Positions 1-4,789 of a stretch of DNA of 64,000 bases are shown in pieces; the stretch's first letter is position 1, and the number at the start of each line of letters is the position of its first letter. The notes beneath the pieces are model-generated. The model was given only the letters and a program-made list of their open reading frames with translations, ran no database searches and had not been told where the DNA came from. The position numbers and the translations under genes were made by a program. Source of the DNA: Methanothermococcus okinawensis IH1 (lineage in GTDB: Archaea; AGJL01; Methanococci; Methanococcales; Methanococcaceae); the NCBI RefSeq assembly GCF_000179575.2, contig NC_015636.1:1093495-1157494 (forward strand), given 5' to 3'.

Positions 1-482
1 GCAAGTATTATATTAAATTTTTTTGCTATTATTTTGCTTACCCTTAAATCGTGTGTAATTCCGCAACCTTTTCCAGTATCGAGAAGTATATTATCCACGA
101 TATTAATATATTTTTTTATTTCATTTATTAGATTTTCAGCATCTTTTTCAGGATTTGAACTTAACGAGGGAACTTTAAACGCTTTTGTTATATTGATATT
201 ATAACTATTTTTTAATTTAGCAATTTCATTTGCATCCATCTTTGAATGAATTTGTATATATTTTGTTCCAGTTTTTTCTATTATATCCTTCCACTCATTG
301 TAATTATTTACAGTGGAAACAGCATAAACAGGGATATTTGCAATTTCCATTAATTCTTTCGCTTTTTCAAGAGAAATATTTCTTTTAGATTCGCTTTTAA
401 CAATTACCCCCGTGGCATTGGCATATTTCTCAACTACTTTTAACTCCTCTTTTGATTTGATACCGCATATTTTGATAAACAT
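1..482 (-). CDS. trpF: Phosphoribosylanthranilate isomerase TrpF (3' part cut by window edge)
   Basis: Catalyses the third step of tryptophan synthesis, isomerising phosphoribosylanthranilate to CdRP. The frame is open from ATG at 482 to position 1, about 160 codons. The product begins M-F-I-K-I-C-G-I-K, the N-terminal TrpF motif with the catalytic Cys. Near the window edge it carries L-L-D-T-G-K-G-C-G, which matches the TrpF barrel segment containing the catalytic Asp. An AGGGAT sequence lies a few bases before the ATG. It follows trpG by 8 nt on the same strand and is the last visible trp operon gene; trpB and trpA may lie beyond position 1. The C-terminal phosphate-binding strands are missing only because the window ends. 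Confidence 0.9.
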   Translation of the reverse strand, partial: MFIKICGIKSKEELKVVEKYANATGVIVKSESKRNISLEKAKELMEIANIPVYAVSTVNNYNEWKDIIEKTGTKYIQIHSKMDANEIAKLKNSYNINITKAFKVPSLSSNPEKDAENLINEIKKYINIVDNILLDTGKGCGITHDLRVSKIIAKKFNIIL

Positions 483-490
483 ATAAATCC

Positions 491-1126
491 CTATTTATAA
501 TTCAACGCTATATCTACAAAATTCTTTATAATTTTTAATCCTTCGGAGCTCCGAAGGAGTGAAGAGCTACAAAATCCTTTGGATTGTAAATCTTCATTTT
601 CCCATTCAGTTAATACACTTTCAGGATGGAATTGAACGCCTTCAATAGGTTTTGTTTTATGCCTTATGCCCATAATAATTTCTTCATTCGTATCAATTGT
701 AACAGCGGATACTTCGAAATCCTTAGGAACTTCAAGAACTGCGAGGGAATGGTATCTTCCAACTTTCAATGGGTTTTTAATGCCTTTAAATATGGTTTTT
801 CCATCATGCCTGATTAAACTTGATTTACCATGAACAGGAGGTATTCTGCCTACCTTTCCCCCAAATACATGAGCTATAATTTGATGACCTAAACAAACGC
901 CCAATATTGGAACATCTACATTTTTTATAATTTCTGGGCAGTTTTCAACATCCCTTTTATTATTCGGAGCTCCGGGTCCAGGTGATATAATAATCCCATT
1001 TGGATTTATTTTTTTAATCTCTTCAAGAGTTATGGTGTTTGGAACAACCTTTATCTTATCGTAAATAGAGGCATATTCTGCCAAATTCCATACAAACGAA
1101 TCCTTATTATCTATTATTAAAATCAT
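491..1126 (-). CDS. trpG: Anthranilate synthase component II (glutamine amidotransferase) TrpG
   Basis: Supplies ammonia from glutamine to TrpE for anthranilate formation. The class I amidotransferase triad is visible: the nucleophile Cys78 in G-V-C-L-G-H-Q, and His167 and Glu169 in Q-F-H-P-E-S. The K-S-S-x-I-R-H-D-G region is typical of TrpG/PabA. The start has an ideal site, GGTGAG-AAT-ATG. At 211 aa it is slightly long. Between the H-P-E-S-V-L-T motif and the C-terminal helix lies an extra stretch at about residues 176-196, rich in Ser and Leu, encoded partly by a 20-bp perfect palindrome (539-558). This looks like an in-frame insertion. It sits between trpE and trpF in the operon. Confidence 0.93.
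   Translation of the reverse strand: MILIIDNKDSFVWNLAEYASIYDKIKVVPNTITLEEIKKINPNGIIISPGPGAPNNKRDVENCPEIIKNVDVPILGVCLGHQIIAHVFGGKVGRIPPVHGKSSLIRHDGKTIFKGIKNPLKVGRYHSLAVLEVPKDFEVSAVTIDTNEEIIMGIRHKTKPIEGVQFHPESVLTEWENEDLQSKGFCSSSLLRSSEGLKIIKNFVDIALNYK
539..558. repeat. 20-bp perfect palindrome inside trpG
   Basis: TCCTTCGGAGCTCCGAAGGA is a perfect inverted repeat centred on GAGCTC. It lies within the 3' part of trpG, in a segment that the amidotransferase family normally lacks. The related sequence TTCGGAGCTCCGAA occurs at about 11332-11345, near the end of the PP-loop gene, and CGGAGCTCCGAAG occurs at 48714-48726 between genes. It is the longest member of the GAGCTC-centred palindromes spread over this window. 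I cannot tell whether it is a mobile palindromic element or a local expansion of the core motif. Confidence 0.75.
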
Positions 1127-1197: not shown

Positions 1198-2556
1198 TTA
1201 CTCATCAATATCATGCTCTACATCCAATGCACGCATAACAGCTGCCATTTTTCTCTCGGTTTCAATATATTCATTTTCTGGAACAGAATCTGCAACAATT
1301 CCAGCCCCTGCCCTTAATCTAATCTTATTATCTATTTCTGCCATTCTTATAGCTATTGCAGTATCTGCATGATTGCTAAGTGAGAAATACCCCACAGCTC
1401 CGCCATATACTTTTCTCCGTGATTTTTCAAGTTTATCTATTATTTCCATTGCCCTATATTTCGGAGCTCCGGTTAATGTTCCAGCAGGAAAAGCTGCCTC
1501 TAAGGCATCAAACATTGTAGCACTGTCTTTTAGTTCCCCTGTTACCTCACTTTCTATGTGCTGAACATGGCTGTATCTAACTATCTCAAAGAATCTGCTC
1601 AACTTAACAGTTCCAGATTTAGATACTTTTCTTACATCGTTTCTTGCTAAATCAACAAGCATCATATGTTCAGCCCGTTCCTTCTCATCATTAAGAAGTT
1701 TTTCTGCAAGTTCTTTTGTTTCTTCCTCGGTTTTTCCAACTTTTGTAGTGCCAGCAATTGGGTTTATTTTTAAAATATTGTTCTCAACTGATGCCATTGT
1801 TTCAGGGGAGGCACCTACAACATCCTTTCCAAATTCAAGTAAAAACATATATGGACTTGGGTTGAGCTCCCTTAAATTTCGATATATTTTAAATGCGGAA
1901 TAATCGCTTTTTAATTGATATTCCCTTGATACTACAACTTGGAAGGCATCTCCACTATAAATATATTCTTTTGTTCTCTTTACCATATCCATGAAATCCT
2001 TTTTATCTGCATCGCATCCGATAATATTTGTTCCACCTTTTTCATCCACTATTTCATATTTCTTTGCCTTTTCAATAATCTTTTCGGCGTTTTTCATTTC
2101 TTCAATGGAATTATTCAACGAAAGGTAATAATATCTATTCAGTATATGGTCATAAACATAAACACTGTTGTAATATCCAAATACAGAAGGCTCTTCTATA
2201 TCTCCGCCGATATAATTGTGAATCGTATCGTAGGCAAAATATCCCAAAAAACCTCCTGTAAATCTCTCATTTGAATCTATATTCATTATTTCTTTTTTAT
2301 TTTTTATTTCAGATGCGAATATATCTTTCAATGCCTTAAATGGATTACTTTCCTTTGAAACTGTGCTATTATCTATTTTTGTATTATTTTTAATATTTAC
2401 AACAAACTCTGGATTTGAAGATATATATGTATATCTCGCTTTTGAAGGATGTTTATCCCTTGATTCTAAAATAAAAGGATATTTTCCTTCCTCCCTCATA
2501 ACACCATATAATTTCAATGGGTCGATATAATCAAACTTTTGCCTAAATAATTTCAT
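1198..2556 (-). CDS. trpE: Anthranilate synthase component I TrpE
   Basis: Chorismate-utilising enzyme that makes anthranilate with TrpG. At 452 aa it has the usual archaeal length. The N-terminal half contains I-L-E-S (residues 29-32), the conserved tryptophan-feedback motif of TrpE, and G-G-F-L-G-Y-F-A-Y-D at 101-110. The chorismate-binding domain includes the I-A-G-T (267-270) and the P-A-G-T-L-T-G-A-P-K motif (357-366). The start is ATG after GGGATAAT. It is third in the operon after trpC and trpD, separated from trpD by a 157-nt pyrimidine-rich spacer in which I see no ORF. Both the feedback motif and the upstream leader peptide suggest control by tryptophan. Confidence 0.95.
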   Translation of the reverse strand: MKLFRQKFDYIDPLKLYGVMREEGKYPFILESRDKHPSKARYTYISSNPEFVVNIKNNTKIDNSTVSKESNPFKALKDIFASEIKNKKEIMNIDSNERFTGGFLGYFAYDTIHNYIGGDIEEPSVFGYYNSVYVYDHILNRYYYLSLNNSIEEMKNAEKIIEKAKKYEIVDEKGGTNIIGCDADKKDFMDMVKRTKEYIYSGDAFQVVVSREYQLKSDYSAFKIYRNLRELNPSPYMFLLEFGKDVVGASPETMASVENNILKINPIAGTTKVGKTEEETKELAEKLLNDEKERAEHMMLVDLARNDVRKVSKSGTVKLSRFFEIVRYSHVQHIESEVTGELKDSATMFDALEAAFPAGTLTGAPKYRAMEIIDKLEKSRRKVYGGAVGYFSLSNHADTAIAIRMAEIDNKIRLRAGAGIVADSVPENEYIETERKMAAVMRALDVEHDIDE

Positions 2557-2713
2557 ATTATCCCATTTTTTACATTTAACTTATTTTTAGTGCCTACTTT
2601 TAATTTTATTTAGTTTAACCTACTTAATTTTATTTTTTTATTTTTTATTTTATTTTAAATTTTTATAATTTTATTATCTAATTTACATCTAATATAATAT
2701 TTATTATCATCTA

Positions 2714-3721
2714 TTATCTGTAATTTTGAATTTCTCTAAGTTTATTAAGCACGATTCCTTCATCGATGGCATTTTCTGCTATTTCGAGACCTTCTTTATA
2801 ATCTGATGCTACATCTGATGCATAAAGAGCTCCAGCAGCGTTTAATAGTATAAAGTTTCTATCTCCATTAGTAATCTCTGAATTTCCTTTTTTTCCTTCG
2901 AAGACGCTTATTATTCTCTTGGCACTTTCATCTGGACTATTGCATGGAATAGGCTTTGAAGGGATTAGTCCAATATCGCTTGGGTGTATTTTATATATTT
3001 TATTTCCATCTTCCTTTTTATTGTCGTTTATTTCTAAAATTGTGGAATAATTATTTGGATTTAACTCATCTAAACCATTTCCATAAACTACAAGTGCTTT
3101 TTTAACACCAAGAAGTTTTAATGCATTCCCAACTTTTTCAACCAAATCATGAGAATTTACACCTATAATCTGGTAATCAGGGTTTGCAGGGTTTGCAAGG
3201 GGACCCAATATATTAAATATCGTTTTTATTCTCAATTCTTTTCTAACAGGCATTATTTTTTTCAATGCAGGATGGTATTTTGGAGCAAATAAAAATACAA
3301 AGTTTGTTTCATCAATCATCCTTTTAGCTTCATCAGGGGTAGAATCGATTTTAATATTCAATGCTTCTAAAACATTTGCAGAACCACTTTTTGAAGTAAT
3401 GGAGACATTACCGTGTTTTGCAACCTTCTTAAAGCATGATAATAAGATAGATACAGCAGTGGAAACATTTATCGTAGAAGAACCGTCCCCTCCTGTTCCA
3501 CAGGTATCACAAACACTTCCCAAATCTACCTTAACGGCGTTATCCCTCATGGCTCTTGCAAAACCAGCAATTTCTTCGGAAGTAAAGCCCTTAGTTTGAA
3601 GTGCTGCAAGATAAGCTCCTATTCTTATTTCACTTTCATTTAAAAGGTTATTGAATAACCTGTATGCTTCTTCATAGGTTAAATCATGTTTATCTACTAT
3701 TTTATTTAATAAATCGCTCAT
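2714..3721 (-). CDS. trpD: Anthranilate phosphoribosyltransferase TrpD
   Basis: Transfers phosphoribose from PRPP to anthranilate, the second committed step of tryptophan synthesis. At 335 aa it is full length. The PRPP-binding G-T-G-G-D-G motif lies at residues 75-80, followed by S-T-I-N-V-S-T and K-H-G-N at about 100-108, all diagnostic. The ATG at 3721 overlaps the trpC stop by 4 nt (ATGA), so translation is probably coupled. It has its own site, GAGGCGAAATT before ATG. Confidence 0.95.
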   Translation of the reverse strand: MSDLLNKIVDKHDLTYEEAYRLFNNLLNESEIRIGAYLAALQTKGFTSEEIAGFARAMRDNAVKVDLGSVCDTCGTGGDGSSTINVSTAVSILLSCFKKVAKHGNVSITSKSGSANVLEALNIKIDSTPDEAKRMIDETNFVFLFAPKYHPALKKIMPVRKELRIKTIFNILGPLANPANPDYQIIGVNSHDLVEKVGNALKLLGVKKALVVYGNGLDELNPNNYSTILEINDNKKEDGNKIYKIHPSDIGLIPSKPIPCNSPDESAKRIISVFEGKKGNSEITNGDRNFILLNAAGALYASDVASDYKEGLEIAENAIDEGIVLNKLREIQNYR

Positions 3722-4404
3722 AATTTCGCCTCCACAAATGATTTAACAAATTCCTCCATATTTTTTGCTTTCATAAAACTTGTTCCTATGAGTGCCGCAT
3801 CGGCATACCTTAGAGCCAATCTTAAATCATCTATTGAACCAATACCGCTTTCACTGACAAATATTACATTCTTTGGAATTAAATCTGATAACTGTTCTGT
3901 AAGAGATACAGTTCCATCATCGAGCTCTAACTTTGAGATGTCCCTATTATTTACACCAATCATGGTGGTGTTTGTATCCTTTGCTATATCAATTTCTTCT
4001 TTATTATGGACTTCTACAAGAGTATCCAATCCATGTTCAAGGGCGTAATCTACGAATTCTGCTGTTTTATCTTTTAACAGTCGTGCTATTATTAATATTG
4101 CTCCACCTTCGGCTTCTGCTGTTTTTTCAATCTCATCCTTTGATGTGATAAAATCCTTCCTTAAAACAGGGAGCTCCGATGATGTACATATTTTTTTAAA
4201 CATATCAAAGTTTCCATTAAAGTATTTTTTATCGGTAATATATGATATTCCCGCAGCTCCTGCATTTTCGTATATTTTAAGAATGTTTAATTCATCTCTT
4301 CCTTTGAGCATATCTCCATATTTAGGAGAATGGACTTTTATTTCTGCTATAATAGGATTTAGATTTTTATTTTTTGTTTTAATAATTGAATTGGTCATTC
4401 TCAC
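3718..4404 (-). CDS. trpC: Indole-3-glycerol-phosphate synthase TrpC
   Basis: Converts CdRP to indole-3-glycerol phosphate and is the first structural gene of the operon. TIM-barrel motifs are visible: I-I-A-E-I-K-V-H-S-P near the N-terminus with the catalytic Lys, L-R-K-D-F-I, G-V-N-N-R-D and V-S-E-S-G-I. An ATG exists at 4416, but it precedes the ribosome site. The sequence GGTGGT-ATT-GTG fits the spacing used throughout this window, so I place the start at GTG 4404 (228 aa). It overlaps trpD by 4 nt. The leader ORF ends 193 nt upstream. Confidence 0.93.
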   Translation of the reverse strand: MRMTNSIIKTKNKNLNPIIAEIKVHSPKYGDMLKGRDELNILKIYENAGAAGISYITDKKYFNGNFDMFKKICTSSELPVLRKDFITSKDEIEKTAEAEGGAILIIARLLKDKTAEFVDYALEHGLDTLVEVHNKEEIDIAKDTNTTMIGVNNRDISKLELDDGTVSLTEQLSDLIPKNVIFVSESGIGSIDDLRLALRYADAALIGTSFMKAKNMEEFVKSFVEAKL

Positions 4405-4591
4405 AATACCACCCATAACTAAATTTATGTTTATTTTTTTGGATTTATAATTATTCTATTTATTAAATTATTTAGATTTATATCTATAATCATTAAATTA
4501 AAATATATAAGTTAATAATTATTGGATAATACTACGAATAACAGTATAGTTAATAATTAAAAACATTTAATATTTGCACTTAAAACTATTT

Positions 4592-4625
4592 AAAAAATTA
4601 CCACCATCTCCAAGCTACATTGGAG
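4592..4625 (-). terminator. Putative trp attenuator: hairpin plus T6 tract overlapping leader ORF end
   Basis: On the transcribed strand CTCCAA and TTGGAG (plus-strand 4608-4625) form a 6-bp stem with a 6-nt loop. The right arm contains the first TGG codon of the leader peptide. Ten bases later, directly after the leader stop codon, comes T6 (plus-strand A6 at 4592-4597). Oligo-T in the non-template strand is the known archaeal intrinsic termination signal, and here it lies between the leader ORF and trpC. A ribosome stalled at the Trp codons would cover the right arm. The mechanism is inferred. Confidence 0.55.
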
Positions 4626-4690
4626 TAGTTGTTAAAAAAAGTATCCATTTTATATATAGTTGATAGTCTTGTCCTATTGGATAATTCCAT
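4598..4690 (-). CDS. trpL: Putative trp operon leader peptide (30 aa, ends W-R-W-W)
   Basis: This short ORF starts at ATG 4690 with the site AAGGTG-CAAAT-ATG and ends at TAA (4598-4600). Its last codons are TGG AGA TGG TGG TAA, giving three Trp in the final four residues. The product begins M-E-L-S-N-R-T-R and is 30 aa long. It lies immediately upstream of trpC, the first gene of the trp operon, on the same strand. TGG is rare in this AT-rich DNA, so the cluster is very unlikely by chance. Leader peptides with consecutive codons for the regulated amino acid are classical in bacterial attenuation. I know of no established archaeal trp example. Function is inferred. Confidence 0.8.
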   Translation of the reverse strand: MELSNRTRLSTIYKMDTFFNNYSNVAWRWW

Positions 4691-4762
4691 ATTTGCACCT
4701 TATTTAACAATAAATACTATAAATACTATAAAAATTAATTAAAATAAAATATGACATTATAG

Positions 4763-4770
4763 TATATATA
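4763..4770 (-). promoter_or_regulatory. Candidate TATA box of trp operon
   Basis: TATATATA on the minus strand lies about 75 nt upstream of the leader start. A transcript starting about 25 nt downstream, near 4740, would leave about 50 nt before the leader ATG. Nearer the leader there is a tandem AAATACTAT AAATACTAT (plus strand, about 4712-4729), which could be an operator or an alternative promoter element. No TGTACA box of the TrpY type is seen. Confidence 0.35.
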
Positions 4771-4789
4771 TTTTTTTAATAATTTTTCT

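Follow-up and report, generated by a model that had tools for sequence, protein, structure and literature searches.

Does an archaeon sense tryptophan by translating a short leader peptide ahead of its trp operon? This question is raised by a 64,000-nucleotide stretch of the Methanothermococcus okinawensis IH1 genome (NC_015636.1, positions 1,093,495 to 1,157,494; hereafter the window), in which a short ORF ending in a cluster of Trp codons precedes trpC. Ribosome-mediated attenuation is a textbook bacterial mechanism. Searches of open-access literature, a scope outside which most subscription papers lie, including the older archaeal trp work, turned up no description of an archaeal leader-peptide attenuator; a passage of one tool paper says, and there without an example, that uORFs act by attenuation in archaea too. 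Known archaeal trp control consists of repression by TrpY and activation by Tar, with no leader peptide mentioned (PMC6737238).

The leader ORF (MELSNRTRLSTIYKMDTFFNNYSNVAWRWW, then the stop; 4598..4690, minus strand) has 30 codons, starts with ATG and ends in AWRWW followed by TAA. A candidate ribosome binding site, AAGGTG (4696..4701, minus), lies 5 nt 5' of the ATG, and the candidate regulatory codons, TGG AGA TGG TGG (4601..4612, minus), encode Trp27, Trp29 and Trp30, with the TGG codons at 4612-4610, 4606-4604 and 4603-4601 and the TAA at 4600-4598. Directly 3' of the stop there is a U6 tract (T6; 4592..4597, minus), a candidate termination site. The original prediction had described the ORF, the spacing of AAGGTG, the TGG AGA TGG TGG TAA end and the T6, all of which match to the base. 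It had also named trpC as the next gene on the strand, heading trpCDEGF, and this was confirmed by profile matches for trpC, trpD, trpE and trpG and by sequence for trpF, with trpB and trpA following.

The leader ORF is separated by 193 nt from trpC, the first structural gene (3718..4404, minus; NF001376 TrpC, E = 3.4e-104). Alignment with relatives indicates that trpC likely starts at the GTG at 4404, which has a GGGTGG ribosome site, rather than at the ATG at 4416 of the mechanical ORF. On the same strand follow trpD (2714..3721; TIGR01245, E = 4.3e-110), trpE (1198..2556; TIGR01820 / NF010087), trpG (491..1126; TIGR00566) and trpF, which is cut by the window edge (1..481), starts with MFIKICGIKS at 481 and was recognised by its sequence alone. 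The genes trpB and trpA, also recognised by sequence, lie beyond the left edge of the window on locus L097, and the operon trpCDEGFBA is complete. Upstream of the leader is pyrC, encoding dihydroorotase (6067-4790, minus), and the gap between pyrC and trpC measures 373 nt. Note that pyrC occupies this place only in the window and in genomes G015-G017, while G018, G019-G021, G023 and G033 have other neighbours there; the leader therefore travels with trpC and not with the upstream gene.

AT-rich DNA is rich in short ORFs, and the motif TGGNNNTGGTGG alone is not rare (28 places in the genome, against 18 for the reversed control in a pattern search), so the weight rests on its position, frame and conservation. 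Among the 1468 window ORFs of 8-60 codons, the leader ORF is the sole case with at least three Trp in its last four codons. In 5000 dinucleotide shuffles of the 373-nt intergenic region, such an ORF never appeared on the operon strand (0/5000), and ORFs with at least two Trp in the last four codons appeared in 0.08%. With the same arrangement present in 11/11 operon-bearing genomes, the idea of a chance ORF without function is practically negligible, and already refuted unless the alignment is an artefact.

This conservation was established by TrpC searches of 36 Methanococcales genomes, with their upstream DNA. All 11 genomes in which trpC heads the trp operon, which are also those with adjacent trpC and trpE genes, have a leader ORF with two or three Trp codons at its end. 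They comprise three Methanothermococcus (including the window's genome, G000), one genome of a further genus (G033) and all seven genomes of genus g2, which we infer to be Methanococcus. The original prediction had proposed to look upstream of trpC in relatives for conserved Trp codons with varying flanks, and this check was passed strongly. The leader ORFs of G029 (MESSDIKRTKISNIYKMDSFFSNHSNVAWRW) and G023 (METVSDINRAKISNIYKMDSFFNNHSNVSWRWCGFL) are homologous to that of the window, and those of G033 (MRISGKMNTNKNVYKIIRKNHAFLYAPILKWGWCF), from another genus, and of the seven g2 genomes, ending in VVLFQWWQ, VVLFQWWH or VVLSQWWH, are analogous. Three unlike leader types can thus be distinguished by what precedes the stop: AWRWW, AWRW or SWRWCGFL; KWGWCF; and VVL(F/S)QWW(Q/H).

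In every leader-bearing relative two Trp codons (as WRW, WGW or WW) stand near the end of the leader. What is kept is the reading frame with its ribosome site, its start and its two or three Trp codons; the rest of the peptide drifts. The relatives have a GTG/GGTG core ahead of the leader start; in G033 there is an AAGTGA farther away. Nonsynonymous codon differences are at least as many as synonymous ones, and the N-termini are unlike; an open frame would be expected by chance across each N-terminal part with a probability of 0.03-0.13. The stop may follow WW or W immediately or come two to four codons later, and lies 135-273 nt from the trpC start across the genomes. Keeping frame, start and Trp codons while the peptide drifts is what would be expected if the Trp codons alone matter.

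Within each genus, conservation covers the last 8-20 residues and leaves the N-terminus variable, a pattern that could also be explained by a TnaC-like arrest of the nascent peptide (with an FFxNxSNVxWRW or VVLFQWW end) by free tryptophan rather than by codon starvation. Against this, the leaders of the two genera have only Trp in common, and G033, whose TrpC is 89% identical to that of the window, has a quite different peptide. Third codon positions are conserved as strongly, which may reflect the RNA, and TnaC turns on a catabolic operon, the wrong sign for a trp operon. We consider such an arrest very unlikely.

Where the trp genes are split, no Trp leader was found upstream of the examined trpC or trpE genes, which covered most of these genomes. 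In the TrpE tree one branch (support 100/100) divides the leader-bearing from the leader-less rows, so the simplest account is a single loss of the leader, along with the break-up of the operon. In six genomes, the regions ahead of hisG, pheA and ilvB showed no similar leader, so the leader is not a general device in these archaea. Widening the search to the phylum brought up the same 36 genomes, and a scan of viral contigs for trpC gave no match.

Some features of these loci deserve a separate comment. The TrpC and TrpE of G033 (L015, L045) are 89% and 88% identical to those of the window (window 1198-4416), though from another genus, while G023, which belongs to the window's own genus, has a TrpC and TrpE only 82% and 74% identical to the window's. 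The closeness of G033 suggests, from these sequence comparisons, either transfer of the operon or an ill-fitting genus boundary. Its leader is very unlike that of the window despite the close TrpC and TrpE, and its operon (L099) has two additional ORFs (2059-2847 and 2944-3276) between trpG and trpF, absent from the window's operon. The TrpE of G023 sits on a long branch. Finally, a TTAGTG motif follows the leader stop at a distance of no more than about 25 nt in 11/11 genomes although the leaders differ, with TTAGCG in three species and TTAAGTG in the window at 4577-4583; the loci in the relatives are L014, L015, L016, L021-L023, L027 and L030-L032.

The end of the window's leader can fold into a hairpin (ACTACTCCAA / TTGGAGATGGT; 4603..4629, minus) of 10 bp with one bulge, which consists of CTCCAA/TTGGAG (6 bp) and, past one bulged A, ACTA/TGGT. 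It pairs the sequence just 5' of the Trp codons with the Trp codons themselves, so that it overlaps the first two and also the initial base of the third, and has an energy of -10.9 kcal/mol; an equally good fold is found in only 0.3% of 4963 AT-rich 40-mers from the window. The 6-bp hairpin originally noted at the first TGG is therefore present and was understated, the full structure having 10 bp and reaching the third TGG. All 10 pairs are kept in three close relatives, with two pairs varying between C-G and U-G and no double (compensatory) change among them, and the sequence of this hairpin was found in three genomes, solely ahead of trpC. A separate hairpin spans the Trp codons of G033, and every leader type has a hairpin at this place. 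In the window's genus a single hairpin lies over the Trp codons, and a clear antiterminator or competing hairpin is not evident.

The leaders of genus g2 can form a 7-bp hairpin 1 between the first Trp codon and a stretch after the stop; its pairs are nearly invariant, without covariation. About 14 nt beyond it lies hairpin 2 (5 bp), with compensatory G-C/A-U and C-G/U-A changes. In the pair count for the g2 hairpin all 72 cells are paired, and 12/500 shuffles reach its covariation score. Beyond the hairpins comes a U4-U5 tract, some 46-61 nt past the leader stop. If the 3' strand of hairpin 1 paired with the 5' strand of hairpin 2, the result would be an alternative 2:3 pairing, which overlaps hairpin 3:4 and would reproduce the bacterial switch. 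In this alternative 97% of the cells are paired and one pair is compensatory; it is broken in G021 and weak, at -0.6 to -6.1 kcal/mol, where the hairpin that it would have to displace has -4.4 to -9.7 kcal/mol. The classical 1:2 / 2:3 / 3:4 switch is thus attractive by eye and is weakened by the energies and the one broken pair. A covariance model of the g2 element gave one match per genome, upstream of trpC, in 7/7 genomes (E<1e-17), and no further significant match elsewhere.

As an alternative reading, the conserved element could be a DNA operator or a small independent gene, with trpC transcribed from a downstream promoter under a TrpY-like repressor. TrpY represses trp in Methanothermobacter (PMC6737238), where tryptophan control of the operon (trpEGCFBAD) is exerted by a DNA-binding repressor at TRP boxes in the promoter; moreover, CTCCAA-N6-TTGGAG is palindromic, and TATA-like stretches lie between leader and trpC. 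However, the palindrome is missing in other genera, whereas the in-frame Trp codons are kept, and it is placed inside the ORF, well downstream of the TATA-like element of the predicted promoter upstream of the leader (ATATATATA; 4763..4771, minus). The compensatory changes of the g2 hairpin are of RNA type. The TRP-box core TGTACA is absent from 10/11 leader upstream regions; the single copy, in G020 (L031), is found in the spacer 3' of the leader, about 180 nt upstream of the matched start of trpC. Taken together, we regard an operator or independent gene as very improbable.

A ATATATAT element, similar to that of the window and followed by TATAA or CATAA, is found 60-154 nt before the leader start in most leader-bearing relatives, and is not evident in G033, G029 and G018. 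The TATA-like stretches on the other side of the leader occur 80-130 nt after its stop in the window and its relatives (CTTATATA at 4504-4511 in the window) and may, judging from their letters, represent a second promoter belonging to trpC. Upstream of the leader, G033 (L015) carries near-identical direct repeats (CGGAGTGAGCGAAGCGAACGAAGAGCAACGAAATGCGAAGCATTTCGTCTAAT) and G029 (L014) similar GAGCGAAGCGAGG-type stretches.

The sequence comparison leaves a Trp-responsive leader peptide as a well-supported reading of the element. How would it act on the operon? In the four genomes of the window's leader type (4/4), 3-7 nt separate the last Trp codon from the start of a T5-T6 run. As 7% of the shuffles also have a T5+ run no more than 12 nt away from the last Trp codon, such a run is not rare by itself, and the U-tract counts mainly through its conservation; U4-U6 tracts also stand at conserved places between leader and trpC, and U-tracts are common in this DNA. 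Termination in M. maripaludis depends on U4-tracts and on the nuclease aCPSF1, which binds them (PMC8716108). FttA, the same factor, cuts U-rich RNA, with a preference for U-rich stretches that lie 30-36 nt behind the 3' end (PMC11616081), and ribosome-polymerase coupling and access of aCPSF1 have been proposed to be mutually exclusive (PMC8116511).

We therefore think it probable that a translated leader peptide senses tryptophan for trpCDEGFBA by ribosome-mediated attenuation built on archaeal termination. In support of this, a leader accompanies the operon in 11/11 genomes, in three unlike sequence types, and the tree matches a single loss of it with the break-up of the operon; in the window's type the spacing from Trp codon to U-tract is kept while the stop moves; and a hairpin covers the Trp codons in every type, with compensatory changes in g2. 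Several observations count against it: the TATA-like stretches between leader and trpC, through which trpC may have its own promoter; the distance of the g2 U-tract from the leader stop; the g2 alternative pairing, weak and broken in G021, together with a hairpin 1 that lacks covariation; and the lack of a comparable leader at hisG, pheA and ilvB.

Under attenuation, transcription would start at the upstream promoter and the leader would be translated. With ample Trp-tRNA, the ribosome would pass the Trp codons, reach the stop and leave; the hairpin over the Trp codons could then form, the U-tract would be exposed, and aCPSF1/FttA, together with that tract, would halt RNA polymerase ahead of trpC. 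Under a shortage of Trp-tRNA, the ribosome would wait at Trp27-30 and hold the hairpin open, and its mRNA channel would cover the U6, which lies 6 to 15 nt beyond the A-site codon. With the termination factor barred in this way, the polymerase would read through into trpC. A specific version of this, in which the stalled ribosome of Methanococcaceae directly hides the U-tract from aCPSF1/FttA, would be a factor-based attenuator without competing hairpins and would place such control in both prokaryotic domains; we hold it tentatively, at a little under even chances. Note that the g2 U-tract lies beyond a stalled ribosome, so masking alone would not suffice there; regulation would have to rely on the hairpins or on a loss of coupling, and the mechanism may differ between genera.

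A leader that senses tryptophan could also act after transcription, with stalling or release of the ribosome on it changing mRNA cleavage, mRNA stability or translation of trpC instead of termination. This would predict the leader ORF and its Trp codons equally; aCPSF1 is a ribonuclease, which cuts U-rich RNA (PMC11616081), and the window's genus shows no evident antiterminator of bacterial style. Nevertheless, the distance between leader stop and trpC start is far for translational coupling, and termination is suggested by the four genomes that have a U-tract immediately behind their Trp codons. We consider a post-transcriptional action unlikely, albeit the most credible of the alternatives.

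As occurs with the bacterial trpL and other trp attenuators (E. coli, Salmonella, Sinorhizobium, Corynebacterium), the archaeal element has, ahead of the first trp gene, a short ORF that carries clustered Trp codons and is preceded by a ribosome site, a hairpin over these codons and a U-tract downstream. It differs in the archaeal polymerase and its probable termination by U-tract and aCPSF1/FttA, and in having the Trp codons at the very end of the ORF, beside the U-tract. The initial statement that the design equals bacterial trp attenuation is well supported as regards a Trp-responsive leader and went too far as regards the switch, given that mutually exclusive terminator and antiterminator structures are not clear in the window's genus and that the sister genus has two stable hairpins with a weak alternative pairing. 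By analogy, the element would work as bacterial trp attenuators do; to count as one of them strictly, it would need competing hairpins and proven control of readthrough. Bacterial TnaC and T-box leaders likewise sense Trp or Trp-tRNA in a leader RNA, but TnaC responds to free Trp and T-boxes bind tRNA directly without translation. Searches of eight loci with Rfam (E up to 1), including the bacterial Trp leader and T-box models, returned one unrelated sub-threshold match. Tar (TK0271) of Thermococcus kodakarensis also controls trp genes in an archaeon, but is a protein activator of aromatic operons.

The leader is placed where bacteria have a similar sensor, which suggests that archaea too use stalling of a Trp-starved ribosome to switch the operon on. 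If true, this would be a conserved archaeal counterpart, in which translation controls transcription termination at a natural archaeal site, and would bear on tryptophan sensing in archaea without a known trp repressor. The leader would then be a natural reporter for transcription-translation coupling, and the tractable M. maripaludis would offer a direct test of the proposed mutual exclusion of ribosome coupling and aCPSF1/FttA.
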